NCBI GenBank assembly: GCA_024741835.1
Contig: JAENRP010000433.1
Coordinates: 1 to 32,533, forward strand
DNA from: Diplocarpon mali
Lineage: Eukaryota; Ascomycota; Leotiomycetes; Helotiales; Drepanopezizaceae
Length of the DNA: 32,533 nucleotides
Direction of reading: 5' to 3'
The notes below the pieces were generated by a model. The model was given only the letters and a program-made list of their open reading frames with translations, was not told the origin of the DNA and made no database searches. Position 1 is the first letter of the stretch. Every line of letters starts with the position of its first letter. Positions 2,090 to 32,533 of this stretch are shown here, piece after piece. The translations under genes were made by a program, and so were the position numbers.

Positions 2090-4030
2090 GAATATACTTA
2101 TAAAAGCACTATTATTAATAGTAAAATTGTCAGTTAGGAAGCGGCATCTAAAGGGCTTAGGTATTACAATTGACCCTTCTTCCTCTATTTCCTCTTACTA
2201 TTTATTACTTAATAATATTAATAAAAAGGAATTATTCCATTTAATCAGCTCTAATACTTTTAAAGCTTTAGGATCAGCCTTGAATTTTATAGCACTTAAA
2301 GATACTTCTATTATTAATAGGTTGGATTTGCGTATCCTAAAAGAGATAAAGAATTGATTATTAAAGTAGATTAGAAAAAGATCAATATCTTCTATTATAT
2401 AAAGAAGTTTAAGGTATTTAATAGTTTTATTAATATCAAATCCTTTATAATTAAGATTATAGTAAACCGAAAGAGAGCGAATATAAAGGTTGCAAAGTCT
2501 TCTTCCTTCGATTCCTACACTAAGAAGATACTATCGAAAGTAAGTTTTTATTATAAAGGATACCTAAATATTATATTATTCTTTAAGCTTAAGGTTAAGA
2601 ATAACCGATTAAGGCATATTACTACAATTACAAATGTCCTAATCAATAGATTCCTCTTTGCGTTCTCTTTCTTATAAGATAAAATAGTCTCGCTCGGCAT
2701 CCGAGAGACTAAGTTCTTGACTTTTATAATTATTAAAGAATCAAATAATATCTATAGAGGCAAACTTATCTAAGATAAGCTATTGAATCTATTTAACAGC
2801 TCTTCTAATTATCTTTAAAGTAGTAGGAATAGGGTCTTCCCTTATATTATTGTTTTTAAAGCAGTTATATATAAATATAAAGAAGTTAAGAACTAGCTCT
2901 TTTAAGTTATTAAAGAAGGAGTTTAAATAGGCGCGCAATCCTTTAATTTCAAATTGCAAATTAACTAAGGTAGCTATCGAACGATCTATCCTTTTTAAAG
3001 GTTAAGCTAAAATTAGTCATTTAATTAAAGGAGAGTCCTTTAAAGATTTTGAAAATTCTAAAAAGGCTGCGCTAAGCGTTTAGGCAGTTTATTCAATAGC
3101 AGTTTCTAGAATCATTTTAGCAAGAGGTAAGTTAAGTCTAGTTTTAAAATTCTCATTTCTAACTCTTAATTTAGGACTGTAAGTTAAATCATATAATTTA
3201 ATATTTATTATATCTTTAGGTTAAAAAGCGAATTTTAAAGCAGGCTTAACTATAAATAACCAATTCCCTTTTTTATTATTAAAGAAATCTCATTTAAACC
3301 CTAATATAAGAGTTTAGTTCTCTTTTAAAATAAGTAAACTATAAGTAGAAGCGCAGAGCCTTAGCATATTAATAATAGTACTATTAAGTAAGGTAATATC
3401 TATAGCTTAATTTGATCTTTTTATAGCCCTATCAGCTGCTATAAGTATTATATTAAATAAGCTTATAAATCTGCAATTGCGAATTCGATTGCCTTAGAAT
3501 TTTGCTACTCCTTCTTAAATAATAAAGAAATTAAGAATCTGAATAGCTTTGGCTATAGGAGTATTTTCCTTAAGAATTTTTAATAATACTCGCCTTCTAT
3601 TATTAGAATCAATATTTATTAGAAAGCGCGAACAAAATAGGAGTCCTCTCTTATTAATAGCTAAATTATCCAATTATTAAATAGATTCTTCCCTTTTATC
3701 TTAGTCTGTTTTGAAAGTATCAGCCAAGGTTATGTATTAATCTGCATCAGCTAAGAATTCCTCTCTAAAGATTCCTTTTAATCTTAATTCTTTAATTAGG
3801 AAGTTATCAAATTAGAGAATTCCAAAGGCTACTTAGGTTGAAAGGTTATTAATAATATTCATATAAGCTAAAAGGAGTTTTTATTGCTCTATATCTCCTA
3901 AGGCTATATAGGTCGATTTGAAGCTCTTTAATAATACAATAGCTCTGCCGTCTTAAGAGAAGTTTATAACTAGTGCTTATTTATCCCCTATCGCAGTAGA
4001 TAAAACCATTTATAAGTTCTTTAAAGGCAT
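2090..4030 (-). pseudogene. C-terminal extension or extra ORF of Gypsy-1, unknown function
   Basis: A minus-strand frame of about 640 codons downstream of integrase. An ATG sits at 4030-4028 (MPLKNL), and the register can be followed line by line from about 4620 (integrase C-terminus) down to 2090; between 2590 and 2190 there are about 130 codons without a stop. Other stops are nearly all TAA or TAG. The stretch 4330-4031 in the same register looks non-coding, so this may be a separate ORF after gag-pol rather than a fusion. It contains one copy of the T-x-x-P-x-L-R-V motif at 3158-3184. I do not recognise a domain; no signal peptide or clear membrane anchor survives, so env-like is a guess only. 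The plus-strand ORF at 2127-2357 is its shadow. Confidence 0.5.
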
Positions 4031-4419
4031 ATTGCTTATAAAAGATAGGGAGTATAAATAAGAGAGTTCAATAGGGTATAAGAATTAAAAGGGCATATAA
4101 GTTGCAATAGGTTTGCTATATATATATTAAGGAAATCGGACTTTTTATTTATTATTTAAGGAAAGTAATAGGAATACTATAATTAAAGGCTAATATTAAG
4201 AATATAAAATAAGTTAAAGTAGGTAAGAATTTAAGATAATCCTAAAAGATCTATATCTTAAATAATAAAGGAGGCGTCCTTACTAAAAATATAAAAATAA
4301 GAATTAGAGAAAGGTAAGACAATTGATAGGCTAGGAAATCGTTTAGTATTCCTATTTACATTCTTTAGATATTTTAAGAATAATAACTTAAGGTTGCGAT
4401 TAGTTAAGTATTTTAATAT

Positions 4420-5650
4420 TCTTTACTCGCAGGACCGGCTTATAGGTTAAGTTAGAAAAATCTTAGTCTTTATCTAAAGGTTTAAAATTGCTTATATTGC
4501 TATTAGTTCTTATAAAAGATTCGGAGGTTATATCAATTTCTAATTTGTCTTTTAAAGGGAATAAGGTCTAGTCGCATTAGTAAAAGTGCTTTAGTCGGTT
4601 GGCTGCAAAGGTTCCTTTAATATTAACTTTATTAAATTCTTAAAGAGAATAGTATCCTTTTTCTTTCTATTTAGATTTAACTTTAAATAGGCCAAGCTAT
4701 CGATAGTTAAGTTTAGTATCTATTAATATATTAATGCTTTTTATAATATTATAGACTAAGATAAGATTATCTTTTTAAATAAAGTGCGTTTTAAGTACTT
4801 TAAAAGCAGCCTATGCTTCTTTAGCTTTTTCCTTATATTATTTCTTTTGCAAAATGATTTCCTTTATATCTATATCTTAAAGCTTAAGTTATTAGCATCT
4901 TATTACTAGCAAATCGGAACGGTTCTGAATTTGACTATAGTTAAATAATCTTTAAATAAGCTATTAGGATTTAAAAGGGAGCTATGCCTCTTTACTATAG
5001 ATAAGGAAAAATAGTATAACTTTAATTGGGTTATAAATTGTCATTTAATAAGCAAAGAGTATTCTATAAAAGTATTTTATCTAATTCTTAAATCCTTTAT
5101 AAGTAACTTTAGATAGCCTATTAAGAATATCGCAATATCCTTGCTCTACTATTCTATTAGCTTTCGAATTATATATTGAGATTTGAACCTATTTAATATT
5201 ATATTTTTATAAAAAAGCTTTAACTACTCCTTTATTTTTAAGGCCTTTATCAATAGTTAGTTTGCTAAAAAGTCTATAGCGATAGACTATATCTTCTTAA
5301 AGGAACTTTGCAATAGATTCAAAGTTAGCAGATTTTAAAGGTCGTCCTTTAGGCCATCCTAATAGGTCTTCCTTTGTTAAAATAAAATATATAATCCCAT
5401 TTTCGGTTATTAATACTTATATAATATTAAGATTGACTTTATAGAAAAGGCCTAATGGCCAAGTTAGGAATAGGGGATTCTCTTTATAATTAGGTTTTCA
5501 TTTCTAATAAGGGATACAACTTTTTATAAAAGCTTTATAGTCTTTAAAAGAACCCTTTTAAAAGAATTTTCTTAAGAGTCGGTAGTAAGTGGACTTAGCT
5601 CCTTAATGGCCAGTCTCCTTATAAACATCTTAAATAGCCTTAGCTTGCAG
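4420..5650 (-). pseudogene. Integrase of Gypsy-1 (degraded)
   Basis: The minus strand reads as a Ty3/gypsy integrase. A zinc-binding N-terminal part lies around 5650-5480 (GH followed by AKSTYYRLLRKFF), then a core with GRPLKSANF near 5345 and IDKG-LKN near 5260 (the second catalytic Asp kept). A stretch reading SKANRIVEQGY near 5170 holds the catalytic Glu. The first catalytic Asp appears as Asn. A C-terminal part reads LGLFKVKSK near 4685 and NRLKHFY near 4600. The core changes reading frame near 5220, so at least one indel is present besides RIP stops. It would insert the cDNA into the host genome. The motif copy TYKPVLRVK (4421-4447) closes the domain. Confidence 0.75.
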
Positions 5651-5859
5651 TTTATTATTATCTAAATAGAGCTATATAAGAAATGAATTATTATTCCTTT
5701 TAAATAATCGTCTTCCTTTTATTAGATAAATTAAAGCTTTAGCTTTGAATTTCTAAAAATCCTTAAAAGCAATTGTCTTTAATTATCTAAGCGTAATTAA
5801 AAATTTCGCAATTTCTTTAAAGTTACCTAAGTAGTTAGGTAATAAAATTCTCTTATTTA

Positions 5860-7450
5860 ACTCGCAGGCTAGGACTAAGAGTCGAGTCCCTTTAAGGCGA
5901 TATATTAATAGATAACCAACTTTATTCTCTACTTACTTATTAATATCTATTTCATCTTCTTTAATCAAATCAAAAGGGTAAAGGCGAGTTCTTCTTAAAA
6001 GGCCGTTGGCAGCGGTATTTTTCATCCTTAGAATATATTTGACTTCAAAGTCTATTAGTCTTATTTAAGCAATCCATTTTATTAGCAAGGCTCTTAATAA
6101 GTCGCTTATAGCTTTATTCAATTATTCTATTAGCACTTTAATATCAGTTTCAAAGATAAAGTAAGTGCTATAAAGGTCGCTTCTCATCTTTTTCATTACC
6201 TTTAAAGCGCTTTTGCATTCCCGCTTAATAGTATTATACTTTATCTCTACTAGATTCAAAAGACCACTTTTAAAGCGAGCTAAATATCTTTTCTATTAGC
6301 TATTAGCTTATTAAAGGATAGTACCCTATCTAATTAAACTTATGTTAACTATTAGTATAATTGGCCTAGCGTCGGCTTTATAATCTATTTTAATTAGATA
6401 TAGCACTTTAAGCAACGCTTACTTCAATTGTTTTATAACCTCTATTTAAGGTTCCTCTTACTAAAACTCAGCCCCTTTTTAAAATAAGGCGTAAATTAGT
6501 ATTGCCTTTTTAGCAAAATCCTTAATCTAAATGCGATAGTATACTATAACGCTAATAAACGCGCAAGCTTCTGCTATATTATTATACCTCTTCCATTTGT
6601 CGATTTTAAGTACTTTAGCCCTTTAAGGACTTCGGCTATTAGAATTAGTAATAAAACCAATAATTTCCATTAATAGAAGATAGTATTATAACTTTAGACT
6701 AACTATTGCTCTTGCCCTTTTAAATTATATAAGCACTTAATCTAAGTTCTAAATATATTCTATTATAAATCATTATATATTAAGAAGAACTTCTTTATAA
6801 TTATAGAATAATCTTAATCCTTTTACTCTTATATTATTTATATAAGAGAGCGCAATATTAGGTATACAATCTACTAATATCTTATAGATTACTTAAACAA
6901 ATTGAGCAATCGAATTTATAGCCTCTTAAGGTAATCTTATTATCTAAAGTAGCTTAAGAGGGGTTTAAATTGCTATTATATCTCTCGATTTAATATTAAG
7001 AATAAATTAGTTATATTTAAAGAAGAAGTTAATAAAAGAGCTGCAAGTTAATCCTACGAATTTATTTAAAAACTCATCTATATTTAAAGGAACGTTAGCA
7101 TCCTTAATAGTTACTCAGTTCATCTCTACTACTACTATTATTAATCTGTAAGTTCCTTTCTCTTTCTTAGCAACTAAGAACCATTTATTCCTATAAGGGC
7201 TATTACAAAACTCGAGAATACCTTGCTTTAGCCTATCCTTTAATATTTCGATTACCTTTTCTTAAAGAGCTTTAAAGACCTTGAATGTTTTCTCTTACTA
7301 AGCTTTATAAGGTATTATCTTAATCTTAATATAAGGTATAACCTCTTCTCGAATCTAGCTAAGTTCTATTTAATCAAAAGCTAAGGCGTCCTCTCGATTT
7401 ATTAAGGTTTTATAAAGTAGTTTGCATTCTTATTCTATTAAATCATCTCC
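5860..7450 (-). pseudogene. Reverse transcriptase and RNase H of Gypsy-1 (degraded)
   Basis: From about 7260 leftward the minus strand reads KQGILEFCNSPYRNKWFLV and KGTYRLI, the start of a Ty3/gypsy RT. The YxDD box appears as YINNI near 6830, both aspartates changed to Asn (GAY to AAY). RNase H follows, and its end VKYI-x-R-x-K-N-TAANGLLRR near 6030 is the usual close before the integrase linker. RT and the flanking linkers at about 7850 and 5880 share one register. The motif copy at 5856-5882 in the RNase H-integrase linker is out of phase with that register. Confidence 0.8.
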
Positions 7451-8159
7451 AATTTTTAGTATATCGAAACGTTCTTTTATTAGCTAATATCTAATAGGTT
7501 TATTAGAAAATCTACCTATAATAAACTTATCGAATTTGCTACTTAGCTTTAAAGGTCGAAGCTTCTTATCTTATTTAAACTAATTATCTAATCCTTTAAA
7601 CTTTAAGCTATTAGAGATTCCCTAATCTACCGGTTATACTTTATTAGCCTTACTTTTATATATAGTTTAAATATTAGCTAGTACTATACTTCTCTACTTC
7701 TTTCCTTTTTTATTAAATCCTATAAAACGGTTCGAATTTTCCTTTTTAAAAACAAATAAAAGATTTTCTAAATTGTTAATTTAAAGTATATAAATAGAAA
7801 TATTATTAGTAATTTTATTATTTTTCACTCGTAGGTCTAGCCTATAAGTGGTTTTTAGGTTTTTTAAAATAATTAGTAAATTATTAAAATTTATAAAACG
7901 AACTCTCTTCTTTACCTTATTTTTCTTTTTTCTTAATTATTAAGCTAATAAAACGCTAATTATACCAATTTTCAAAATTCTAGATTTGACTTTTAATCTA
8001 AAACCGCAAGTTAAATTGCTATTATTTAAAATCGGCAAACTCACCTTTCTTTTACTATAACTCTTCGCTAAGTGCCTTCTTTTACTAGCATTAAGCCTAG
8101 CCCTTATACTAACTAATCGTTTCTTAAAACCTTATTTTAAAATTCAGCTATATCTCTTG

Positions 8160-8520
8160 CGATAACTATTTATCCTTTTAAAGATTGATTTATATTTTAA
8201 AGACTAGCTTTTATAAGACTATCTTTAAAATAGTTAAATATTAGCTGAGATTTTAAAATAAAGGGCATTCTTAAAAGAATATCATTTAAAGAATTCTCTA
8301 TTATTAAAAAGTTAGTATAATTAACAATTCCTTTGACTTTAACCTTTACGTTTTTCACCTATCTATTAAAATTGTATTTTAATCTAAAGACAGTCGAATA
8401 AATAAGGAGTCGATCGCTAACGATTATCAATTAAGCTATTTCCGCCACTTTTCTAATTATTATATTAACTTTTAAACTACAATCGATCAAAGCCTTTACT
8501 TTAACTAATTCTTCTATTAA
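8160..8520 (-). pseudogene. Retropepsin-type protease of Gypsy-1 (degraded)
   Basis: The minus strand reads VKALIDCSLKVNIIIRKVAEIA, matching the ALIDSG start of a gypsy aspartic protease with the catalytic Asp kept. SNDILLRMPFILKSQL follows about 70 codons later, matching the conserved (D)ILLGMPF flap-end strand. It is in the gag register; RT is in another register, equivalent to a -1 change somewhere between about 8150 and 8040. It would cut the polyprotein. Confidence 0.7.
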
Positions 8521-9349
8521 ATAAATAATAATAAGGCTTTTTATTATAACTATTAAACAATTTCAATTGATATTCTAAGATATTAAAATTATTATTATAA
8601 TATTATAATACCTTTAAGTTCCTTTATCTTTTGCAATTTAAAGACATTTAATTAAAGCTAAGTACTTCTTAAAGTTCTTTTATATTACAATTTCCATTTC
8701 CTTATTATTGTTCAAATCTTTAAAGGCAATTAGGATATACTTTCCTAGCACTTTATTAAAGCGTCTAATTAAACTAAATAAGTCTTTAAATGTAAGGTTA
8801 ATTTGCTAGGCTATAATATTCTCTATAGCTTTCTCTATTACAATTGAACTAGCGTATTTATTAACGAATTTTTCCTATTTTAATATCTATCTCTTTCGCT
8901 TAAGGTTAAGGGTCCGCGTAATAACTTTAACTTTTTAATCTTTAAGCTTAGAGCTATCTTTATCTATTATATCTCTAATCAATTCGTCTACTATATCAGC
9001 TTTATCCTCGTCTACTATAGTTCCAGATTATTAGATATCTTTTAGCATTTAGACTCTATATTAAGATTCCTAAGTTATATATATTAATTTCTAGACTTTA
9101 GCTGGTTTTATTAGTATTAAGGGAGTAGTAGATCTAGAAGAACACTGAGTATTCTAAGGGTTTCTAAATATAGAAGCAGTATTAATATTAGCAGATATAT
9201 TATTATTAACCCATCTTAAGATAAAGATGCCTCTAACTTCTATAGCTATTTAATTAAAAGCTAGGTCTTTAAGAACTCCCTTAAGTAGGTTGCTAATTAG
9301 ACCTATATATATATAAGTTGGAATTTTAGTATTTATATTTATAATACGC

Positions 9350-10990
9350 TATTATTCAATCAAATTCTCATTCTATTTTATACTATATATTATCATTCGA
9401 ATAGTTTATAACTATAAGCGATTCTAGTGCTTTTTAATAAGGATAGCTTTTAGCCTAGGTTCTCTAATATAAAGCATCCTATACTTATTAATATATATAA
9501 CCCTAGTATTAATAAAACAATAGAAAAGAGGGCAATTATTACGATACTTATATAAAGTGCAATTGGGTTTTTTATTATTGCAAAAGTTATAAGTTAATTG
9601 TCTTCTATTACTATTCCCTTAGTACCCTATAGTATTAATATTAGCAAAGTGCTAATTAGGATTAATTTCTCCTTCTTTAATCAACTATTAAGTTCTTATA
9701 TTAGCTGGTTATTTCAAATGATAAGAAGCAGGAGTCTGGTAATAGGAACTACTATATTAGCTTATAGTAGCCGAGTTTTGCCTATTATTAAATTAGGAAA
9801 TATGCTATTTTTCCTATAAGAGATTATTAATCTTAGTTTTTAAGCTTTAAATTCGGAGTTCTGTAAATTAGGTCTTAAGTTCCTTAATTCTAGGGTTGGA
9901 TCCTACTCTTAAGTTAGGACTGCAAGTGAAAGGTATAACTACTAGGTTCTTCTTTACCTCCTTTATAACTTCTAAAGCCTTTAAGTATTCTTAGACCAGG
10001 CTCTTAAGGTCTTTAGTATAAGAAGGAATAAGGGCTTTTTCCTACTCTATAATATTAATAGTTCTTTTACTAAGATCTGATTTTAAAGCAAAGGCTAAGA
10101 ATTCCTTAAATAAGGCAAAGGTTATAAAGTCTTACTTATCGATCTTAAAATACTTAATAATCTTATTTTAAAGGCCAGTAGGTAATCTAAGTAAGAAAAG
10201 GCAGCCTCTTTCAACTTCATTAAGTATTTTCTAGCTAATTAAGGTATTCGATATATAAGTAAAAGTCTAATAATAGTTCTTAAGTTCCTTAAGAGTATAA
10301 GTGATTAGAATAAATTCCTTTAAGAAAGCTAAGGTATTGCAAATCTGCTATCTATCAAATTCGCAGAATTCAGATTTAAAGGCCTTAATAAGGAGTTCTT
10401 ATAAACTATAAGTTTTCCATTTAAAGAGGGACTTAATAATATCCTTACTTATATAATTATAGTAGTAAGGAAGTTGAGAAATCATATCCTCTTATATAAT
10501 ACTAAAATCGTAATAAGTTTCCTTATATTACTTAAGGAAATCAGTAATATTAGCGCTTATAAAGTAAGAAGCGCTAAAGGAATTAAGGAAGGGAAAGTGA
10601 CTAGTAATAGCCCTAAATATAGCTATTATCGTTTTATACTAACCGTCTAAGTTAATAGAATCCATAAGGGGCAAAGGAGAAGCTTTAATATTATAAGATT
10701 AATTACTAAAAGGAGTACTTTAAAATTCAAAAGGGCTTAAAGAACATTTAGAATCTGAGTCAATCTTAAAGTAATTAAGACGAGTTTAAAAAGATTCAGA
10801 TAAAGGGTTAATAAAAAGTTTAAAATTATTATTATTATTAGTATTTTTAAATATTAATATTAAAAAAGTAAGTAGTAGTCCTAAGTTATTTAAAGACGTC
10901 TTTTTATCCTCCTACTTATAGGCTAGGCCTAGGAGTAGAATTCCGGATTCTGCTAAAAGTTTAATCTAAGTTTGCTAAGAGATTCTAAGT
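9350..10990 (-). pseudogene. Gag of Gypsy-1 (degraded)
   Basis: A minus-strand frame in the same register as the protease. It contains capsid-like text such as LFKQKTYSLQELLIKAF (about 10420-10370), LKELKNYYQTFTYISNTLI (about 10290-10235) and RLPTGLQNKIIKYFKIDK (about 10190-10135), typical of the helical Gag of fungal gypsy elements. A Cys-containing, knuckle-like part reads CNNKKPNC near 9570. An ATG lies at 10665-10663, but the frame stays open further up to about 10990, so the start is uncertain. Motif copies sit at 9901-9927 (TCSPNLRVG, in phase, after the capsid) and 10910-10936 (out of phase, at the upstream edge). Between 9350 and 8520 the frame continues as poorly conserved linker. 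Confidence 0.65.
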
Positions 10991-11689
10991 GGGTATTAAA
11001 TAGCTAATAGGAGCGTTATAACTAATCGCAATAAGATAAGGTTTACTTAATTAAGGACTAATTTCTAAGATAAGGTTTATATCTAAGATTCTTCTTAGCC
11101 TTTAAGCCAATTCCTATTAGTCCTTAGAATAAAGGGGTCTTTAGAGACGATTCTAAGGCAATTTTTAGAGTTCTATCAAGCCGAGGCAGCTGAATTATCG
11201 GATTCGGATTTCTAAAGATTCTAAAGAGGCACTTTTAGTTAGAGTTTGCGCTTAATATTACTTAAGTACTTAAAACCACTGCTATTTAAGATTGCTATTA
11301 TAAGGTTTACTAAACTTTTTATACTAAAAAGCCGAAAATTCCGAAAATCTCAAAGTTAAGGAAGAAAATAGGGGTTTTCGAAGCAGAGCTAAAAAGGGAA
11401 AATCTAAGGTTATTAATAGTTGCTAAACGAAAATCAATAGTTTTAAGTAACTAAGCGATTAAAGATAAGGGTTTTAAAGTCGATTAAAATGCTATAAGTA
11501 TTTCAAAGACGTATTCTTCAAAAGGCCGGTCTCTTATCTGCAAATTAAAAGATCGATAAGGTTATATAAGGATAGAAATCTTAAGAAATCAGTCCCTATA
11601 TAAGTCACTAATATAAAATAGATTAGAGATAATATAAGAATAGGCTTAAGGGAAGACTTAAAAACAAAAGGAGGAAGCACTATAAGCAG

Positions 11690-11960
11690 GCTCTCTTAAA
11701 TAAGATATTAAGAATAAGTCCTAAGTATAAGGTATATTCAGTACTATAGCAACGCACGCTATCTCTATATACAGAAGATGGCCCTTTTATCCTCCTACCA
11801 TCCTGCGCCGATCATATGATATATATCACAAGACCTATCCATCTCAGGTCTCTATAGTACTTAGGCTATTGGAAAAACTGTTCTTCCAACGACCTAAGGA
11901 GTGTATTATATAGAAAATAGGCTAAATATGCTAGTACGCGCCCTAAGGTGTGGATTCACA
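11690..11960 (-). repeat. 5' LTR of Gypsy-1 (outer part; inner end not located)
   Basis: On the minus strand the element begins TGTGAATCCACACC at 11960. The following 200 bp are richer in G+C than the interior and include the palindrome ATCATATGAT (11811-11820), a TATA-like GGATAAAAGGG (around 11785) and a run of pyrimidines. The second LTR is not in the window, so the inner boundary (somewhere between about 11440 and 11690) cannot be fixed. The stretch 11000-11690 shows no convincing frame and is taken as LTR remainder plus leader. Confidence 0.55.
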
Positions 11961-17000: not shown

Positions 17001-19340
17001 CTTTAATTAAGCGACGATAAAAGGCTGCAAATAGCTATTAAAGCAGTTAATAATATAGCAAGGCCTAATAGGATAATTCCCACTTTACTCATTTTTAAAG
17101 TATATCTGAGGCTAACTGAACTAGATCTACTAAATCTATTAGTAGAATAGAGGGCAATAATAATTAAAAAGGCTATAAAGGAAGTAAGGAAGATCTACGC
17201 TACTCGCAAGGTCAACTACGCTTTAGGTATAAGGAATGGCCTTAGAACCACTTATATCTACGATTTGAAGTTAAAAGACCTAGTATTAGTATATTAGGAG
17301 AAAGGAGGATAGATAGGCCTATTCGAGTTCCTAGGCTTAGAGAACGAAACCTATATAGTTAATATCAGCGGCAAAATAAAGCACTTTAAGTCAATAAGCG
17401 TACGCCTATTTAAAATCGATAATAAAGAGAACTGCTTAAAGGAAACTAAAGGAACTAAACCTAAGGATCGAACAACTACCGAAAGGGAGTAGAACGCAAT
17501 TGATATTAATAAAGAAGTAGAGCCCTCTCGCTTAGTTGAACCGCAACTTAATAGCTGCAAGCAATTACTAAGAGTAAGGGTTCCCTTTATTAAGCCTATT
17601 TCCAGCCTTCCTATAATCGATAATAATTATAATACTAAGATATGAATATCCTTTAAAGTAGACAATAAGCCATATATAGCTAAATCGGAGGTATTCCTAA
17701 TAGAGAAAGAGAATAGGGACTAGGAATTGTCGTAGAAACTATAGGAAGAAGGCAAGATTACTACTCCTAGGCGCCCTTTTTAGCAATCTCGCTTAAAGGA
17801 GTACTAAGGGCTAATAAATAAGGGGGTATTTATACTAATAAATAAAAATGACCCTGCTATAAAAGGCAAGAGGATCTTTAAATCGAAAATGGTTGATAAG
17901 ATAAAGGGGAAGGAGATAGATCACCTATTCGAGAAATCACGCCTAGTTATATAGGCCTAGAACGATACTAGTAAGAAGGAGGAAGGTATAATCACTTAAT
18001 CTCTAATAATCTAATAAGCAAGCTAACGCCTTTTAGTATCACTTTCGGTATTAATCCGGGAATACTTTAAAGAATAGGGTAAGAAGGGCATTCTCGGCCT
18101 ATGGGATATTATATAAGTATATACCTAGGCAGCTTCGAAGCTACTATGCAATATATTTATATTTCCCTTATAAGATATCGCTAAGCTATTCCCTATAGGT
18201 ATAGTCTTTAAAGTAGTACTACCGCTCTATAGCATTCCTAAATTAGGAAACCACTAATTTAGCACTTACTATAAGTACTATTATAGCAATCTCAGTATAG
18301 CCAACTTAACTTATAACCCTTATTTATTATTAACCTTAAGCACTTCTCCCTTTTTCAATATAGTAAGAATACAAATAGATAATACTTTAATACTTAGAGA
18401 AGCAGACTTCTTAAAAAAGGAAGAGGATAAGATCAAAAGGGTAGGATTCCTTATAAAGCTAATATAGCACCTATTGAGCATTGAATTACTAGCTTTCAAT
18501 AGGTATATTATTTCCTAGGAAGAGGATATAGTATATATGCGATAAAAGGGCTAAGGCTAAAGGCTGGAACTAGTTAATACTTCTTAGGAGGACTATAAGT
18601 AATAATACCTAGAGCAAAGAGCAAGGGGAGCTTATTTAGCTATAATCTACTAGCTAAAAGCTTCCTTTGATTTATTAGCTGCAGCCTAATATTAGGATCC
18701 GATAGTTTAGGATACGGAGAATCTAAATAAGCGACTTAAATGGATCCGAAATAACCCTAAAAGAGGCCTAACCTACCTTGCTATTAATTTATAAAACGCT
18801 AAACTATTCGCATTTATTAATAGATCTTTTGCTAATAATAAGGATTTAAGCTCGCAGATCGGCTATATTATCGTACTAGCTACTAAAGAGGAAGGAGAAT
18901 CGCAGTTTACTCTAAAAGGCAATATTCTATACTATAGCTCAACAAAGTGTAAGAGAGTAATAAGAGCTATACTAGCCTCCGAACTATATGCTATAGTAGT
19001 AGGTATTAATATGCTAGTTTCTATAGCTACAACGATCGATATAGTAACAGCTAAGCTGAGTCTACCCCGCCTCCCTACTATTATATATATAAATTCCCTC
19101 TCCTTATATAAGTGTATTATCAAATTAGGTACTATAAAAGAGAAGCGATTAATAATCGATATAATAGCTATTCGACAATTGTACAAGAATAGGGAGCTTA
19201 TAGAGATATATTGGATCGATGGCGCTAGCAACCCCGCCGATGCTATAATAAAAGCCAATCCAAATCAGGCCCTTTAGCAGCTGGTAGATACTAATTCGAT
19301 AACTGTCAGAAAGGAGGAATAGGTATAAAGGCCTATTAGG
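14060..19340 (+). pseudogene. Gag-Pol polyprotein of Copia-2 (degraded)
   Basis: One register throughout. Gag occupies about 14060-15850, with a knuckle near 15627-15670 whose Cys codons read as Tyr (YIIY-x4-Y, SSKH). In the protease the catalytic D-T-G reads N-I-G at 16059-16067. A His/Cys zinc region follows near 16450-16580, with His and Cys turned to Tyr. Integrase keeps D, D, E at 16662, 16839 and 16947 and ends near HFKSISVRLF (about 17400). RT spans about 17700-18600, and its QxDD box reads IQIDNT (about 18370). RNase H spans about 18800-19310: SSTKCKRV, ILASELYA, then the Asp of a TDSKSLY-like motif read as Asn (YINSLSLY), ending WIDGASNPADAI. An ATG-led open stretch of 88 codons (19011-19277) is just the least damaged part of RNase H. 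Broken by dozens of TAA/TAG codons. Confidence 0.88.
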
Positions 19341-23146: not shown

Positions 23147-23341
23147 TATTAAGATAGGTGATATAGCTATTACTCTAATGTATTATTATATGACCTTACT
23201 GCTTAGTCAATAGGATATTGATATATATATAGCTATAAGGAAGAAAGGGGTAACCTTCCTTCTTTAACTCTTACTAATATATTAACTATTAACCTTTAGA
23301 AGTTTCTATTACCTACTACGCCGACTTACTTAAGCTTAATA
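23147..23341 (+). repeat. 5' LTR of copia X, right copy (195 bp)
   Basis: Begins TATTAAGATAGG and ends GCTTAATA; same length and ends as 1801-1995 in reverse. The palindrome CATATG of the left copy reads TATATG here (23187-23192). Confidence 0.8.
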
Positions 23342-23352
23342 GGTTATAAGCC
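23342..23352 (+). other. Primer-binding site of copia X, right copy
   Basis: GGTTATAAGCC directly after the LTR; with RIP of one TG reversed it complements the anticodon stem-loop region of initiator tRNA-Met. Confidence 0.6.
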
Positions 23353-23458
23353 TTAGCTAAACTCATAATAGATTATTAACTTCCTTTAAAAAGCACTTGC
23401 GCTATAACTATTAGTAGGAAGTTAAACGAAACTTATAGTAAGAGGCGAGCAATCGGCG

Positions 23459-23476
23459 AATAAGAGGTATAATTCC
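23459..23476 (+). repeat. First leader repeat of copia X, interrupted by Gypsy-2
   Basis: AATAAGAGGTATAATTCC; Gypsy-2 follows its last base. Further copies of the unit lie at 30029-30045, 30069-30085 and 30103-30119, with shorter ATAAGAGG-type copies at 30149 and 30214. Confidence 0.8.
23472..23476. repeat. Target-site duplication of Gypsy-2, left (ATTCC)
   Basis: Repeated at 30004-30008 directly after the right LTR; the left X copy (about 1667) shows the site with a single ATTCC. Confidence 0.93.
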
Positions 23477-23783
23477 TGTAACGGCTGCACCTCCACTTGG
23501 TGCAATTACCTAGGAGTACGGCGTTTTAAGGTTTTGCAATCTCGATTCGATATAGGGTTATTTCGAATTGATCCTAAAGGTGCAAAAGGATATTCTTATA
23601 TAATATTATATAAATGGATAAAGAGCCTTAAGCTGCTTATATATATAAAGAAGAAGGGCTCTCCCTTAAGGAGGGTTCTCTAACTTCTTTGTTTCCTTTA
23701 TATTAGACCTATAGAATACGCCTTTTATACTACTTCTTGCTCTTATACTTAATCTCGTACTTCGGCGGTTTTGTATTATTATA
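23477..23783 (+). repeat. 5' LTR of Gypsy-2 (307 bp)
   Basis: Starts TGTAAC and ends ATTATA (GTTACA in the right LTR). From 23509 on it aligns without gaps to 29729-30003 with about 36 differences, all transitions, and in about 33 of them this copy carries the A or T. The first 32 bp do not match the right side. Confidence 0.9.
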
Positions 23784-23785
23784 TT

Positions 23786-23798
23786 AAATGAAGAAGTT
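23786..23798 (+). other. Candidate self-priming site of Gypsy-2
   Basis: AAATGAAGAAGTT, two bases inside the LTR, is complementary to AACTTCTTCGTTT in the right LTR (29902-29914), allowing one RIP transition. That site is where transcription would start, 40 bp after a TATA box. This is the arrangement used by self-priming Tf1-type elements. Confidence 0.6.
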
Positions 23799-25425
23799 CT
23801 TTTCTACTAGGGATAGCTTTTAATAATATCCTACCCCTTTTGAAAATCGATTTGCGGTCGTTTCGACTTTCGATAGAGTCAGGATCTTAAAGATCTCTTA
23901 GATAAACTAGAAGCTTGAGTATAGCTTATTAACTAGTATAATTGAGAAATGCTTTTATTAATCGGATTTTCTCAACTACTCCTTTTATAGAAGTACTATA
24001 GGTAGAAGTTAGGAGAGCACTATGCTATTAGAACCCTTTTTCTATAGAACCCCTTTTTAACCGAATTACTACCGAAACCTAAATTGGTAAAATAAATTCC
24101 CTATTAGCCAGAAGTCAGCAAATACGGAATATACCCGGTTTGTTCGGAGAACCAGCTTCTATAGGGAGTACCCCTACCCTAGCTCCTAGGGCCGGACCTT
24201 CTTCTGCTACTAAGGGCAAAAGACCATAATGCTATAGCTAAGCTAATTAAGATAAATAAGACTTTTTAAACCCGAATATCTTATAAGAAATAGTCTTAAG
24301 TTTAGAGGAATCCTTATAATACTAAGATCAATTTAATTAATAACTATAAAGTAAGATTAGCAGGATTGCCTAAGCTATCTTTGGCCTAGAGACCCTAGCT
24401 TATTAAAGCCAAGAGACGGCTTAGCGCATATATTAGACTATTAAGCGAGAATCTACCTACCCTTAAGAGACCTAGCCTCTTTTAAAAGTCGATATAGATA
24501 TAAAACGGCTAAAAATTCAGCTAATTAAAAAGATCACCCCCTTTGATAATAGGACCTCTTTAATATATAAGCAGTAGTTAGCTTTAGTCTAAGACCGATT
24601 GTAAGTTAATACTAACTTGTATTCGAATAAGCAAGCTCGCTAAGCCCTTATTTAAAGATCTACTATAGGATAAGCTTAAACGTACCTCGAACCTTAATAC
24701 CTTTCGAAGACTAACCCCTTTCGGAATTGTTAAGAAATAGTAGAACTACTAAGTAGTTACTTTTTAATTAGCTAAGAGGTAGACCTATTTCGATCCACTT
24801 TCTATTACCTTTATATAAGAGAAGCCGGTCATTTTAAAGAAACTTTCCCTTAGTTTTAAGCCTGATTCTAATCTACTATAATCTAAGGAGAGGTCTTAAG
24901 ATCTAAGTAGTTCTTCTTTATATAGAATAAGATTATCCCTTAGCTTAAAGCTATTTGCGCCTTAGCTAAGGCCTTTTAAAAGAAGGACTATACTATTATA
25001 ATCAACTAATTGAATGCCTTTAATACTAAATGCTAAAGCAATCAACTTCTTAACCCTTCGACTAGAAGCAAGGCGACCTTAATATTATATTAAAAGATAT
25101 CCGATTCGCTCTTTAATAAGACTGCTCGCAGTTTGAGCGCTAGAAGTACTACTTAAGTTTCTAAGATACTAGCCTTAAAGCCTACTACCCCTTTTTACTA
25201 AGATACGCTAGCTAAGGCTAATTCTCTTACTTTACCCTTTAAGCAGGCTACCTACTAGACTTATAGTAAAACTAATCACTATAAGACCGAGTGCCCTTCT
25301 ATAAGTAAGATTAATACCTTAGAAGATGTAAAGGAAGTTAATTTAACTTTAGACTTAATTAAGAATAAGGTCGAAATAGAAGAAGATTAGGAAAACGAAA
25401 AGGCCTAGGAAAAGACTCCTACTTA
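23799..25425 (+). pseudogene. Leader and Gag of Gypsy-2 (degraded)
   Basis: The first about 250 bp are leader with no frame. From about 24050 a Gag-like frame follows: a Pro/Ser/Ala-rich stretch (GEPASIGSTPTLAPRAGPSS near 24160), then a poorly preserved capsid region with frames changing at least once, then a zinc knuckle near 25250-25295 reading Y-x2-Y-S-K-T-N-H-Y-K-T-E-C. That is C-x2-C-x4-H-x4-C with the first two Cys turned to Tyr. Start codon not identifiable. Gag would form the virus-like particle. Confidence 0.65.
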
Positions 25426-25428
25426 AGC

Positions 25429-28400
25429 TTGCAAAAGTGCAACTTATTAAAGCTAGATCTTAACTCTTTAATAGGAGGGAAGCAATTCTTAACCTTTTAT
25501 ACTATTAGTATAAATGGACTTAAAGTATTATTATTAGCTTTAATAGATACTAAAGCCCTTAGTTATCTGTTTTTGAATTATTCCCTTTTTATATATCTTT
25601 CGAAAGCGATTGGTTTTAAAATTCTTCCTCTTTTAGCCCCTATTCCTATCTATAGATTTTAAAATACTATTTGCATATAAGCTATATATTATATGCGCTT
25701 TCACTTAACAATTGATAGAAGGCGTATTTATAACTACCCTTAGGTTATTCTCGACCTAAGCTAGCGCGATACTATTATTAAAGTTAAATAGATACGCTGA
25801 TTCTAATTCAAACTTAACTTAAAGGAAAACCAATTCATATAGCCTTTATATTACCTCTTATCTCTTTAATTTATAAAAGAAATTATCATTTGTCTTCCCC
25901 CTTTTAAAGGACTTTGGATCCAATCTAATTATTAAGCTAATATTAATTATAAAGAATAGGAAATGGCTATAGATAAAGCTCGATAGATTAATAGAAGATA
26001 GTCTTATATTAATTTAATAGTCCTAGCTAGGCGCAAGATCCCTATTACTATTACTAGGCCAGCGCCCTTACCTATAACTAAGCTAGATCTAGGAAAACAG
26101 TCTAATATAAATCGATTATAATCTGACCCTATTTGCAAATGCCCTAAAGCTGCAGTTCCTATTTGCAAAATCAGCGCTAACGCCTTTTATTATAATATAA
26201 AGCGTAAGGAGACTAAGTTCTTTTAAATTAATATTTATAAAGTGGATAGGATTCTAAAGGAAAAATATAAGCTTAAGAATCTTAATATCGAAAAGCTAAT
26301 TAACAATCGACTCTTAAAATAGTACCGATCTCTAAGATAAGCCTTCTTAAAAAGGGATGCAAATACCCTCCTTCCCTATCGGTACTACAATTATAAAATA
26401 TAGCTAAAAGGGCCCTTGCCTAACGCCTATTCTCCCTTCTACTATCAATCTACTAAGGAGCTTAAGGTTATAAAGGAGTACTTACTTAAGAATTTAGATA
26501 AAGGCTTTATTAAGATAAGTACTAGCCCCTTTGCTTCGCTAGTACTATTTATAAAGAAGGCCGATAGTAGCCTCCGATTTTGCATAGACTACTAGAAGCT
26601 AAACGCATTAACTTAGAAAGACGCTTACCTAATTCTAAGGATAGATAAGCTTTTAAGGTAAGTATCTAAAGCTAAGATTTTTATAAAACTAGATATTCGA
26701 GCTACTTTTAATTAGATATAAATGGACCTTAAATTAAAGGAATATACTACCTTTTAAATAAGGTATAGATCTTATAAATATAAGGTTCTCCTATTTAGCC
26801 TTTATAATAGACCTAGTACTTATTAGTAGTATATAAATAATATTCTTTTAAATTACTTAAATGATTTTTATATAGTATATTTAAATAATATTCTAATTTA
26901 CTTTAAGAATATTAAAGAGTATTAGGGCCATATTGAAAAGGTGCTAAAACAACTCTTAAAGGCTGGCCTTTAAGCAGATATTAAAAAGTGCGAGTTCTAT
27001 ATTACTTAAACTTAATATCTTAAATACATTTTAATAATAACTAGGATCGAACTAGACTTTAAAAAGGTCGAACTACTGCGCAATTAGAAATACCTAAAAA
27101 CTATTATTAAAGTGAAGTCCTACTTAGGATTTTGCAAGTTCTACTAATAATTCATTTGCAACTTTAGGCTAATCGCTAAACCTCTTTCTATTTTAACCCA
27201 ATTAATAGTACCTTAGAATTAGATAGAAGAGTGCCGAATCGCTTTTAAAGAGCTTTGCAAGTAGTTGCTTTCAATTCAGCGGATTTACTATTTTAACCCC
27301 GACTTGCCTATAAAGCTGGAAACTAATGCTTCTAATAGCATTATCGCTAGAGTACTTTCTTAATAATACTCTGATAAGCAATAATATTCAATTGGCTTTT
27401 ATTTGCATATACTCTTTAGCTATAAACCTAATTGGGAAATATATAATAAGGAACTCTTTACTATTATTAAATCTTGCTATAAATGGAGACCTAAGCTTAT
27501 ATTACTTAAGGAGTGAGTTTATATTTATTTAGATTACCGCTCCCTTAAGTACTTTATAACTACTAAGGTTCTAATTGTAAAATAGTGCTGATAGATGGAA
27601 TTTTTATCTGACTTTAATTTTCGAATCATATACACTCTTAGTAAAGACAACTAGAAGGCTAATATTCTTAACTGTTAAAAGTAGGATATACCAGTTTATA
27701 AATAAGCGAAGCTAAATAGCCGATCTTAAGTTTTGCTTTCTCTTACCTGATTAGATACTTAAATTAATATCGAACTGGCCGATAAATTTCTCGCCGAATC
27801 TGCCGAAGGCACCTTTGCCTTAATATTAAACGATACTCCCGATTTAACCTTAAATTGACTTAAGGATTCCTTTAATTTGATTAAGAAGCTTTATTAAGAT
27901 AATCGCAAATCCTTTTAAGAGATTTATACTAACCTTCTTAAGAATTACTCCTTAAAAGACGGATTGCTTTGCTTTAAGGAGCATCTTTATATATATTATA
28001 ATACTCTCTTATATACTTATTTAATTTAGGAAGCTTATAACCAACCTTTAAGCGCGCACCTTAGTAGCTTAAAGACCTATTAACTTCTTATTCTTAAGTA
28101 CTATTAGGTTAGGATAGGTTTGGATTATAAAAGATTTATTACAAACTGCAGACCTTATTAATTCTCGCATTTAAAGACAACTAAATAATAAGGCCTTTTA
28201 TAGCCTTTCCCTATTCTTAACTATCTTATGCAGCACTTATATATAGATTTTAAGGATTTTCCTTTTAATAAGTATAGCTTTGATCGAATCCTGGTTTTTA
28301 TAGACCGACTTAATAAGAGCACTATTATAATTCCTTATTAAAAAGATATTAACGCTTAAGGAACTGCCTAACTATTCGTTTAATAGATTTATCGATTCGG

Positions 28401-29400
28401 CTATACTTTAGAGACAATTACCTTAGACCAAGGCCTTTAATTCGTCTCCTTATTTTAAAAAGAGTTCTACTATATTATTAATATTAAGATTAAACTCTTT
28501 ATAGTATACTATAAGGAGACTAATAGCTAAACGGAGATTATAAATAAGTATATTAATTTAAGGCTATAGCCTTTTATTAATTACTATTAAGATAATTAGA
28601 GTAAGCTAATTCTATTAATAGATTATACGCAATTGATTCTCTCTTATACTTTAATTAATATAATCTTATATTAGCTTAGGTTTAAAGTTATACCTTAGAT
28701 AAGTTGGGACTAGATCTTTTTAAAACCGTCTAGCCTATAGGAGAGATTGAATTAAGTAGAAGCTAGGCTAATAGTAGAAAGGATATACTTAGCTTAGGAA
28801 GTAGCAAAAGGCAATATAGAACGCGCTTAAGAGAAAATGCGTAAGTTTACAAATTAATACCAAAGGGAGATTGATTAAAAACCTAGAGATATAGTCTACC
28901 TTTTAATAAAAAATCTTAAGAACTACTGCCTTAGTAGGAAACTGGCCAATTAATAAGATAGTCCTTTTAAGGTTCTTAAGAAGGTAGGCAATTTATATTA
29001 GATTAAGCTGCTTATAGGTTTTATAATATATAATATCTTTGCGCTAGAGCTACTATTTAAAGATCTGCAGAACCCTTTACTAAGTTAGAAATAACCTTAG
29101 CCTATTATAGAAAAGATTATTAGGTAAAAAGAGTATAAGGTATTTAAGATACTAAGTGTACGCCTATCTTAAGGAAACTTAGAGTATTAAGTCAAATGGA
29201 TTAGTTATAACCTTGATTTAAGTTAGTATTATACTTTAAATTTTATAAGATCCTTATATAAGATTCGCGACTTTTATTAGGCTAATCTTATAAAGCTAGG
29301 ACCACCTTAGAACCTATAAGCTTAGCTAAAGGCTTAGGAAAGTGGTATAGATAATTATAGTTACTTAGAAGACGATAGGCCAGACGCGAAATAGGTTAGT
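25429..29400 (+). pseudogene. Pol polyprotein of Gypsy-2 (protease, RT, RNase H, integrase, chromodomain; degraded)
   Basis: Protease begins near 25429; its active-site D-T/S-G lies in ALIDTKALS (about 25534-25560). RT starts near 26470 with LDKGFIKISTSPFASLVLF, contains LDIRATFNQI (about 26690), and its YLDD box reads YLNNILIY (about 26879), both Asp changed to Asn. RNase H follows around 27290-27680. The integrase linker and core include LYIDFKDFP (about 28235), TLDQGLQF (about 28420) and NS-x-TEIINKYI (about 28530), so D, D, E are all kept. A chromodomain lies near 29120-29310 (KEYKVFKILSVRL, KWISYNLDLS, FIRSLYKIRDFYQANL), a module that steers integration to marked chromatin. Stops are TAA/TAG with rare TGA. 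Confidence 0.88.
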
Positions 29401-29464
29401 AAATAAATCTAAAAATATAATTAAAAAAAAAAGAAGAAAAAATAATAAAAATAGAAAAATAATA

Positions 29465-29728
29465 ACACTAGGCCTACTACCCCTTCCTCTTACAACTCCT
29501 CCGACCCCTCTTCCTCTGCGCTTAAGGAGATAAGCTCCAACTCTATTCTAGAGCTAGAGCTCGCCTCCTATCTACGCCCCCGCTCGGAACGACCCCGACC
29601 TCCTCTTGCCGCTGCTGGCGCCGCCCTACTGGCCGCCGCGCCTGATGCTACCCTCGTTACTGCGAGCCCCCCTCCTCCTACGAGAGACTCCGCCGCCACA
29701 GCGGTCCGCTCTGCCGACGCGGCGATAG
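29465..29728 (+). other. GC-rich, little-mutated 3' end of Gypsy-2
   Basis: In sharp contrast to its surroundings this stretch is GC-rich with many CpG. One frame (PSSYNSSDPSSSALKEISS, then RPRSERPRPPLAAAGAALL) is open from about 29465 to 29725 and, apart from TAG/TAA at likely RIP sites, carries on through the LTR. It may be the disordered C-terminal tail of Pol after the chromodomain. Few CpA targets may explain why it escaped RIP. Confidence 0.5.
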
Positions 29729-30003
29729 CCTAGGAGTACGGCGTTTTAAGGTTTCGCAATCTCGATTCGATGCAGGGTTATTTCGAATCGACCCCGAAGG
29801 TATAAAAGGATATTCTTGCATAATATCACGTGAACGGACAAAGAGCCTTGAGCTACTTATGTATATAAGGAAGAAGGGCTCTCCCCTAAGGAGGGTTCTC
29901 TAACTTCTTCGTTTCCTTCGTATTAGACCTATAGAATACGCCTTTTGCACCACTTCTTGCTCCTATACTTGATCTCGCACTTCGGCGGTTCTGTGTCGTT
30001 ACA
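29729..30003 (+). repeat. 3' LTR of Gypsy-2 (shared part)
   Basis: Aligns to 23509-23783 and ends GTTACA before the ATTCC duplication. It is much less RIP-altered than the left LTR. The expected TGTAAC start is not seen upstream; 29697-29728 differs from the left LTR start by about ten transversions. It retains CACGTG (29827-29832). Confidence 0.85.
29862..29868 (+). promoter_or_regulatory. TATA box in the Gypsy-2 LTR
   Basis: TATATAA lies 40 bp before AACTTCTTCGTTT (29902), the inferred transcript start that pairs with the primer site inside the left LTR. Confidence 0.55.
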
Positions 30004-30008
30004 ATTCC
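30004..30008. repeat. Target-site duplication of Gypsy-2, right (ATTCC)
   Basis: Matches 23472-23476. Confidence 0.93.
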
Positions 30009-30255
30009 CTATTTAGCCAACCTATATTATAAGAGGTATGATTCCTTGCTCTATAACCCTTTAGTACTATAAGAGGTATAATTCCTTGCTTTACTATATT
30101 TTATAAGAGGTATAATTCCCTGCGTCATAGCTTAAAAAACCCTTTTTGATAAGAGGACTTCCTCCCTATTTAATACTTCTATAATACCTACTATTTAATT
30201 ATTTCGACTTTTCGATAGGAGGAGTGCCCTTAACCATTTAATTTATTTGATTTTA
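30009..30255 (+). repeat. Leader of copia X with repeated ATAAGAGG units, right copy
   Basis: Non-coding stretch before gag with three 17-bp units (30029, 30069, 30103; consensus ATAAGAGGTATAATTCC) followed by shorter related units at 30149 and 30214. The left copy shows the same arrangement in reverse. Confidence 0.75.
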
Positions 30256-32533
30256 ATGCAATTCGATTCGAAATAGCAATAGCTTCCGATTCCGATTGAA
30301 ATACTAGACCTAAAGACCTTTAATTCTTTTAAAAGAACTGGCAATAATAGTTCGACGATTTAAAGCTTTACTTTAAAAGCAAAGGCATTGAAATAGCGAT
30401 TTAAAAGATACTTATTAAATATGTAAGAATAGCCTTCTATACTCCTTTACTAATTCGTCTACTTCTACTTTAATAGCTAATACAACTGCTAAAGATTTAT
30501 TAAATATATTAAATAAGCTTAGCTTAAGAGCTTTAGTAGATAATAACTAAGAATCCTAAAGGTAGATTTTAAATATAGAAAAGGAGAAGGAGTATAGGCT
30601 AGCCTTAGTTAAATATAAGCTTAAGATTAATAGAGGTTTAAGCAATAAAGACTTAGATTTTATTTAAGTTTATAATAATATAAAGATAAGATAAGATACT
30701 TTAAAGGTAAAATACTTTTAGACAACTGCCTTTAATACTTAGCATCTATTATAGTAGATCACTTTATTTTAATATAGAAAAGATAAAGATAGTAAGGATA
30801 TAGATATAAATATAGACTTTACTTAATTTATATTATATAAAGTAAAGAGGAGAGTAAGAGCCGCAAATCCTAAGATAGCTATAACTTTTAAAGAAACTTA
30901 GCTTTTTAGTTTCCTACTTAAAAGCTTCCCTTTTAAGTTTACTATTATAAAACAATCTCTTCTTATCTAATCTAATCTTAAGATCTATAAGAAGATCGAC
31001 CTCCTTTAAACTATTAAGCAAGACTTTAAAGGATGCTCTAAATTAGCAAATACTATATTATAAGGCAATAATAAGCCTAAAAAGAGGAAGGAGCGTAGGA
31101 TAAGCCCTTAAGCTTATCAAGGATGCTACTTCTATAATAGTACTTATAATATTACTAATTGTAAAGTTAAAAGGCAACTAATTAATATAGTCGCTAGCTT
31201 TAATATTAAAAAGCAATTGAAGTAAAAGTTAAAAAGCAAACTGCCCTTATCTTACTAAAGGCTATAACTACTAAGAAAAGGCAAAGGAAAAGGCTATTTA
31301 GTTAAAACTTTAGCAGATACCTTTAATGATAATAGTAGGTTATTTAAATCTAAATCCACTTTTAATAATTTAGATAATAATTATAATAAAGATGCCTACG
31401 TTTTAAAAGCCGATCTTTATAAGATCCTTAAATCTAATTAGTATAATAATACTAGTTATATAGTATATATGATTAATAAATCCTACCTATTTAAAGGCCT
31501 GCTTACTAAAATAAAAAGGCGCTTTATTAAAGTTGGTAGTAGAAGGTTATATATAGATTTAATAGGTATAGTAGAGATAAATATCGCTAGCATTTCTTTC
31601 CTTTTATAAAATGTTCTCCTTATACCAAGCTTAAGTATTAATCTTTTATCTAGCTATAAGATCTATATAAAATTAAATTTTAGAAGAGTTTTTAATAATC
31701 AATTTATATAATTTATAAATAATAATTATAAAGTGATCTTTAAAGCTAAAATCAAAGATAGACTTTATATTATCTTAAAGGTAATATTATAGAAATTAAC
31801 TCTTAGGCCAGACCTATAAGTAGATTCCTTTAAAGAAAGTATACTTTCTACTTTAATATAATTAAGTAAGGATAAGGAGGATAGATAGACTCTTAAGCTA
31901 AGATCGCAAGTGAAATTCGTAAAAATGACTCTTAAGCTAGGACTATAGGTAGAATGTAATATATCTTTAAAAATGACTCTTAAGCTAGGATTATAAGTGA
32001 ATTTAATAAAAATGACTCTTAAGCTAAAACTGCAAGTGGATTTTACAAATTTGCTAATAATAACTCTTAGGCTAAGATCGCAAGTGAAATTTATAGAAAT
32101 AACTCTTAAGTTAGAACTGCAAGTGAACTTTGCGGATTTATTAAAAACAACTCCTAAGCTAAGACTGCGAGTAGATCTTGCTATTTTTAAGAAATCGACT
32201 CTTAAGCCAAGACTGCAAGTAGATCTTATAATTCTATTAAAAACGACTCTTAAGCCAGGCTTGCAATTGGAAAATGGCAAAACCTCAAGCTGCTATTACT
32301 AATCCTTTTTAGCTACTAATAATAAAGTATCGATTAATAATAGGCTATTAAAGCTATTAAAAGCCGAAAGCCTATTAAAGTATTAGCTAATATATAAAAG
32401 ATTCGTATATTTAAGGCTAGAGAAATTAAAGGGCCTATATAAGGTCTTAACCTTAAAATAGAAGATCTAAGTACTAAAGGATCGCTTAGTATACTGAATT
32501 TGCAAGCTAATAAAACTTCGAAATCGGATGCAA
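30256..32533 (+). pseudogene. Gag-Pol of copia X, right copy (degraded, partial at window edge)
   Basis: Gag begins near 30256 (start uncertain), with FDDLKLYFKSKGIE at 30351-30392. A one-base deletion near 30440, absent from the left copy, shifts the frame. Gag continues with EKEKEYRLALVKYKLK to a knuckle at 31124-31162 spaced C-x2-C-x3-H-x4-C, with Tyr where two of these stood. Protease follows at about 31430-31790: its active site reads NNTSY (likely DSASH originally), then IKVGSRRLYIDLIGIVEI, NVLLIPSLSINLLSS and KIKDRLYII. Next comes the ten-copy repeat array (31799-32272). The pre-integrase domain follows (LIYKRFVYLRLEKLKGL, then LQANKTSKSDA) up to the edge. Integrase and RT lie outside the window. 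Confidence 0.82.
31799..32272 (+). repeat. Ten-copy in-frame repeat array in copia X (T-L-K-x-x-L-Q-V-x)
   Basis: Units start at 31799, 31889, 31928, 31976, 32015, 32063, 32102, 32150, 32198 and 32246. Spacings are 90, then 39, 48, 39, 48, 39, 48, 48, 48, all multiples of three. Each unit reads T-L-K/R-x-x-L-Q-V (for example TLKPGLQL, TLKLRSQVK), joined by 4- or 7-residue Leu/Lys-rich spacers. The array lies between protease and pre-integrase and is in frame with both. RIP damage inside it is light: the plus frame is open from 31997 to 32302. The 171-codon minus-strand ORF is its reverse reading. Confidence 0.85.

Follow-up and report, generated by a model that had tools for sequence, protein, structure and literature searches.

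Introduction

The in-frame palindromic elements of bacteria are longer than about 35 bp, and the palindromes of fungal mitochondrial DNA include the GC clusters. Here we describe a near-palindromic unit of about 35 bp. Every site that could be placed falls within a retrotransposon, the families being unrelated, and most are read in frame in loose stretches between domains. The unit is examined from a 32,533-bp contig of Diplocarpon mali, JAENRP010000433.1 (hereafter the window; contig C433 of a 49.4-Mb assembly in 676 contigs). A preliminary description had listed 17 copies of a 27-bp motif there, encoding T-x-x-P-x-L-R/Q-V, in a Gypsy element (Gypsy-1) and a second retrotransposon (X).

Several described systems resemble the unit in part, and the comparisons below draw on those portions of the cited sources that were available to us. 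Closest in form would seem to be the palindromic coding elements of Rickettsia, Wolbachia and Methanocaldococcus, in which a palindromic sequence is translated in frame at various positions, within unstructured segments of unrelated proteins (PMC2996958). The present unit is shorter, at about 35 bp, is fungal, and lies in retrotransposon polyproteins rather than housekeeping genes. Palindromic DNA common to unrelated genes and in-frame reading within coding sequence are found here as well, but we do not file the unit as a member of that group because the clean absence in relatives that defines it was not observed. PARCELs, treated in the same source (PMC2996958), are likewise dyad-symmetric tandem coding repeats with whole-codon steps and, in some taxa, a link to mobile elements; they differ in sequence and in having an amphipathic unit of 25 residues (75 nt), present in many membrane-targeted open reading frames (ORFs). 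Repetitive extragenic palindromes (REPs) are high-copy palindromes of 20–40 bp, but are prokaryotic and by name extragenic (PMC3733652), whereas our unit is fungal, judging by its nearest proteins, and mostly intragenic where placed. Short, putatively mobile palindromes with length variation have been described in fungi, although these are mitochondrial and those of Fusarium are A/T microsatellites (PMC7218506). In fungal GalEa copia elements a palindrome, the Conserved Hairpin Site, is conserved across distant families; it is a 9-bp sequence of the CTGATCAGT type (CHSeq1 or CHSeq2) directly after the 5' long terminal repeat (LTR) (PMC5445492), whereas our unit has another sequence and occupies many internal places. 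The repeat was not found described in the literature searched, mostly open-access and in part only excerpts (including PMC5445492, PMC11527701, PMC12158172, PMC2996958, PMC7218506 and PMC5628827), and the main text of two genome papers on Diplocarpon coronariae (PMC11527701, PMC12158172) holds no word beginning with "palindrom".

Results

Abundance in the Window and the Genome

The window is AT-rich (31% G+C). Its CpA and TpG dinucleotides are strongly depleted (observed/expected 0.40 and 0.35, respectively) and CpG is little depleted (0.87); the depletion of CpA and TpG is the mark of decay of the repeat-induced point mutation (RIP) type. Copies in the window are decayed forms of the unit. 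We scored the window with a transition-tolerant scheme at a threshold of at least 16, using 30 second-order Markov sequences as the control. Sixteen of the 17 listed copies reached the threshold (3162, 4425, 5860, 7827, 9905, 10914 and the ten in X), while the seventeenth (7989) fell below it but is supported by homology, since it aligns with a unit of a second copy of the element at L031:1501 (L numbers denote fetched loci). Eleven matches scored at least 22 where 0.3 were expected, and nine scored at least 24 where 0.2 were expected. The other matches of at least 16 (2313, 7039, 9987, 30916) are within chance, 6.6 being expected.

As the scoring scheme was derived from the listed copies themselves, the control over the whole genome is the cleaner test. 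The exact core pattern, ACTCNNRRNYYNRRNYYNNGAGT, has 2421 matches in the genome and its reversed control 1. Allowing up to three mismatches, one palindrome form is matched 337 times on the forward and 345 times on the reverse strand (control 0), and a 35-bp pattern comprising the core and both outer arms has 399, against 0 for its own reversed control. The core with reversed flanks likewise has no match in the genome, and from the composition of the window about 1 of the 2421 cores would be expected to carry both arms. The listed copies are real, though the preliminary description of them is confirmed only in part. Elsewhere, a narrower pattern has 0 matches in viral contigs and matches in 3 stretches of prokaryote genomes.

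Structure of the Unit

Rather than 27 bp, the unit comprises an odd-length near-palindrome of about 35 bp, with a 23-bp core, ACTCnnRRnYYnRRnYYnnGAGT, and outer arms RAWTYn and nRAWTY. Position statistics were taken from one representative of each of 22 site families, drawn from 163 sites in fetched loci; some representatives share an element or an array and are not all independent. Position -2 is Y and position +2 is R in 22 of 22 families. Positions -3, +3, -5 and -6 also deviate from even odds, and the signal ends from position 8 outward, no departure being seen at positions 8 to 12. The centre and the base at ±1 are free between the inverted half-sites. Two kinds of half-site occur, distinguished by whether core position 5 is G or C (with the mirror image at 19); they are combined as unlike pairs in 15 of the 22 representatives and as like pairs in 7, and pairing is frequently broken at positions 5/19.

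The core yields the peptide T-R-R-P-G-L-R-V from either strand. Because it is a palindrome with the same peptide on both strands, strand is hardly informative for the units, and the strict sense orientation reported earlier does not hold. On the sense strand of Gypsy-1 the half-sites are in fact mixed (a..b in three units, b..a in two, symmetric in two).

Locations in Unrelated Retrotransposons

Units are not confined to the two elements first recognized: they have fixed positions in four families, two of them Gypsy-like and two copia, with RVT_2 next to both of the latter. Gypsy-1 appears from its sequence to be encoded on the minus strand. A copy of it (L004), which aligns to window positions 7382→4361, holds on its plus strand a stretch resembling reverse transcriptase (RT), for which there is no Pfam RT match and the best solved-structure match, to an RT/RNase H, is non-significant (E 0.058). 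Over the RNase H-like part of this copy and the adjoining unit (S1), one plus-strand frame has 6 stops and the other five have 11–31. If the element is on the minus strand, as these observations suggest, the domain order first given for Gypsy-1 has to be reversed. The gag and RT of Gypsy-1 were named by eye with weak support; Pfam, run on nine decayed pieces, returned one family above cut-off (RVT_1, in the second Gypsy-like family) and three weak ones, of which two (Cohesin_load, DotZ) are plainly unrelated. In elements of the Gypsy-1 type, units flank the gag-like region on both sides; others precede the RT-like region, follow RNase H, lie further downstream still, or fall within an extra ORF. 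Among placeable sites the claimed position at domain junctions is borne out, gag and the extra ORF having to be added. This long extra ORF lies downstream (L029/L030) and carries several units; one piece of it that was tried has no Pfam match.

Table 1. Units and domain-like regions of Gypsy-1 and X, in window coordinates.
Feature	Position	Strand	Remarks
Unit on the far side of the presumed integrase region, downstream of S1	3162..3184	-	counterpart L029:115, phase 0
Unit between S1 and 3162, half types a..a	4425..4447	-	equivalent place in L004 decayed
Unit S1, directly after the RNase H-like region	5860..5882	-	phase 1, LASLACE in L004
RNase H-like region	5933..6256	-	from L004:1127-1450; weak Pfam RT_RNaseH match (0.005), below cut-off
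RT-like region	6893..7261	-	from L004:122-490; no Pfam match; PDB RT/RNase H match non-significant
Unit upstream of the RT-like region	7827..7849	-	counterpart L031:1663, phase 0
Decayed unit upstream of the RT-like region	7989..8011	-	counterpart L031:1501, phase 0; below threshold in the scan
Unit on the C-terminal side of the gag-like region (by eye)	9905..9927	-	counterpart L018:495/L025:525, phase 0
Unit on the N-terminal side of the gag-like region (by eye)	10914..10936	-	counterpart L018:1501; phase 1 if within the ORF
First, separate unit in copia X	31799..31821	+	window scan
Nine-unit array in copia X	31889..32268	+	units at 31889, 31928, 31976, 32015, 32063, 32102, 32150, 32198, 32246; spacings 39/48

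X was rightly taken for a copia element and has plus-strand orientation: in its family, arrays are found upstream of RVT_2 on the same strand, at about 2.0 kb in three of the four places checked and 1.8 kb in the fourth. The spacings of its units (90, 39, 48, 39, 48, 39, 48, 48 and 48) are all multiples of 3, and the array is shorter by one 39+48 pair in L117 and L121. The units are in phase with one another. A minus-strand open frame of 175 residues runs across the array (31765–32292), which may be expected from palindromic units. In another copia family an array lies 287–332 bases upstream of the RVT_2 match (4 places checked), and another unit lies 787–819 bases downstream of that match in the 15 places checked (814–817 in 12 of them). 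This downstream place is non-coding: the unit is present in all 82 matches, and the T-run preceding it varies by single bases. Its distance from the RT suggests that it is on the LTR side. The gag–protease place of copia (L049) was named by eye.

The second Gypsy-like family (Gypsy-2) carries in-frame units at two places, one upstream of RT and the other in the linker that joins RNase H to integrase (L041, L042, L035, L037). The RVT_1 match is 3.4e-07 in L041, and in another copy (C82:144765) RVT_1 ends 751 bases before a unit. A further unit, that of L033, lies in the probable gag of Gypsy-2, given that L108 and L109 lie side by side on contig C8 and that the start of a protein, P0005, resembles L033.

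Twenty further loci, sampled from the lists of core and 35-bp matches and so from low contig numbers, all match repeat families represented among the loci fetched earlier; one of these families (L056, L112, L126) and a few others have no element name. Two loci chosen as an isolated-looking or a clustering singleton (L027 and L033) both proved to be multi-copy, so that confinement to multi-copy DNA is established for 22 sites of the 2421. The nearest protein matches are from D. coronariae. One strain of this species is reported to have 20.74% copia and 5.67% Ty3 elements (PMC11527701). The predicted D. coronariae protein P0002 contains STRGPGLRV, and its best match in the genome of the window is 94%. 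In a further protein, P0003, with 71% identity across 40% of the query, the RNase H region is not followed by such a peptide, but its linker does not align. Another predicted protein of D. coronariae, P0001, is a retroelement remnant that lacks most of the RNase H–integrase linker, the unit included.

Reading Phase and Peptide

For 17 site families, some of which share an element or an array, the frame could be placed by eye. Fifteen are in phase 0, which reads T-x-x-P-x-L-R-V; none is in phase 2. Phase 1, which reads L-A-x-L-A-C-E, is found at 5860, the copy already singled out as out of phase (there given as 5856), and probably also at 10914. In L041 a frame of 116 aa is stop-free across both units; in-frame reading is found also in L042, L049 and L029–L031, with RIP-type stops. 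A share of 15/17 differs from one third with p 4.5e-06. Among 3072 enumerated undecayed 35-mers, stops occur in phase 0 in none, in phase 1 in 1632 and in phase 2 in 768, leaving phase 2 open in three quarters of the forms. With stops as the sole filter 45% of sites would be in phase 0, and the observed 15/17 then has p 0.0003 and the absence of phase 2 p 0.0009. Stops thus explain part of the phase bias, and the remainder points to a phase 0 peptide that elements tolerate better, or need; the peptide probably matters for tolerance.

Of the two views offered in the preliminary description, a DNA unit or a shared peptide, the first is supported. The palindrome, the conserved outer arms, the occurrence in more than one phase, the non-coding place and the two half-site orientations all indicate that the DNA unit comes first and the peptide is secondary.

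Discussion

We consider it probable, if only modestly so, that the unit is a hitchhiking palindromic coding module of DNA that passed between element families and was amplified with its host elements. Transfer would have taken place during the active life of the families, the likeliest route being reverse transcription, with element RNAs recombining or the template being switched at the self-complementary sequence. The unit would have multiplied locally by tandem duplication with its spacer, in steps of 39, 45 and 48 bp, and would have been amplified together with the host element; a step of this size is seen in L037, which has two units (+45 bp) where L042 has one. Insertions that break a domain or a frame would have been lost. 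Phase 0 would have been favoured as the only phase always stop-free in undecayed 35-mers, its peptide, T-R/P-x-P-G-L/P-R-V, probably being also the best tolerated, and the copies would later have been blurred by RIP-type transitions. A bolder version, about which we are doubtful, would make the unit a eukaryotic counterpart of selfish palindromic coding elements, confined to LTR retrotransposons and moving between families via reverse transcription, a parasite of parasites of about 35 bp whose copies still exchange sequence at half-site positions.

Several results weigh against a mobile module. The clean insertions that had been anticipated were not found, nor were empty sites, in the copies examined. 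At S1 there is no empty site in 20/20 alignable copies (the window and 19 of 20 fetched; L069 is unalignable), nor among the matches listed, where the unit is present in 100/100 of 199 counted; none was found at the downstream copia place (82/82) or in the L033 family (21/21, with 20 of about 40 matches fetched). The flank-anchored patterns require exact flanks. No target-site duplication was seen, the outer base being identical in 7/22 site families when only the adjoining base is compared. Mobility is therefore inferred from the spread among families. In addition, the outer right arm is the weaker, with positions +5 and +6 individually non-significant, the stability of the RNA hairpin is uneven (z -4.7 to +1.6 over 12 units), and the phase bias beyond stop avoidance leaves room for a peptide. 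The search with P0002 returned 247 matches by count; among those listed, all that cover the linker include the unit, by query coordinates, and they form one-unit and two-unit classes.

Exchange between copies is likewise only hinted at. Four polymorphic transversion columns within units fall at positions 5, 9, 15 and 19 (chance 0.0009); one family has them at 15 and 19 and a second at 9 and 15, which are the positions that distinguish families. This is a hint of exchange between sites, not proof. Four-gamete failures are 22/54 versus 33/175, for columns that are few and non-independent, and positions 5 and 9 are near linkage equilibrium in 100 S1 units (53/27/11/9, p 0.12). In the element with units S2 and S3 there is no transversion within the S2 unit, nor, in a separate comparison, within S3, and transversions are not clearly enriched within the unit (p 0.05, 0.29). 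Hypervariability of the unit, which the 100 S1 units had suggested, was not upheld, as variation is like that of flanking C/G columns. CpG steps within S1 units appear as CG, TG or CA, and TA.

It is unlikely, though less so than the other alternatives, that the unit is a cis-acting site kept by selection, either as half-sites for a dimeric host or element protein or as an RNA dimerization or packaging signal, with multiple copies raising affinity. The inverted arrangement of the half-sites, with the centre and the base at ±1 left free, would suit such a site, no empty site was seen in the families tested, and the tested sites are confined to repeats. The mixing of half-site types (7/22 alike, 15/22 unlike) and the frequent loss of pairing at 5/19 argue against it, as do the variation of unit number and place among families and of array length. 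The rate of change of the S3 unit, moreover, is close to that of the remaining C/G columns in the same family (0.253 versus 0.267); the rate for the S2 unit (0.083) is biased, since the loci were chosen by that unit.

It is improbable that the palindrome is mobile on its own account and depends on a DNA enzyme, like REP/RAYT systems or miniature inverted-repeat transposable elements (MITEs). The REP-like size and symmetry and the many unrelated sites would suit such an origin, but no copy in single-copy DNA was found in the samples, and neither empty sites nor, at the adjoining base, target-site duplications were seen. A MITE would also have terminal inverted repeats around an interior, and the unit has no interior.

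We regard as quite improbable, too, that T-x-x-P-x-L-R-V is a peptide used by many polyproteins, for instance a protease site or a docking motif. The preponderance of phase 0, the absence of placed sites from the mostly open phase 2, the places between domains and the spacings in multiples of 3 all speak for it. A polyprotein cleavage site would keep a single phase everywhere, however, whereas 5860, and probably 10914, has the same DNA in phase 1, a place downstream of copia pol is non-coding, and the arms of the palindrome extend past the peptide core; the phase count itself comes from 17 families placed by eye. The peptide is accordingly not supported as the primary object of repetition; the non-coding place and the site in phase 1 weaken that view, and a phase bias exceeding what stop avoidance predicts keeps it alive. 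Chance or a low-complexity artefact, conceivable for a short motif in AT-rich decayed DNA, is excluded by the genome counts (2421 versus 1 and 399 versus 0), and we give it practically no weight.

To our knowledge, colonisation of several unrelated retrotransposon families has not been reported for any coding repeat as short as this one. If the unit is a hitchhiking module, it would show how the loose parts of polyproteins lengthen and how sequence is exchanged among unrelated elements, would offer a testable marker of Gypsy–copia recombination in fungi, and would warn that a peptide motif common to several retroelements may in reality be a repeat of DNA.

Other Repeats and Reading Frames

The longest plus-strand open frame of the window (18795–19277, 160 aa) resembles, by eye, the end of a copia RNase H but has no Pfam match. 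In the L033 family (L088–L107), length steps of 3, 12 and 27 bp were considered as empty and filled sites and rejected, being due to a separate repeat of about 24 bp upstream of the unit, which varies in copy number by these whole-codon steps.

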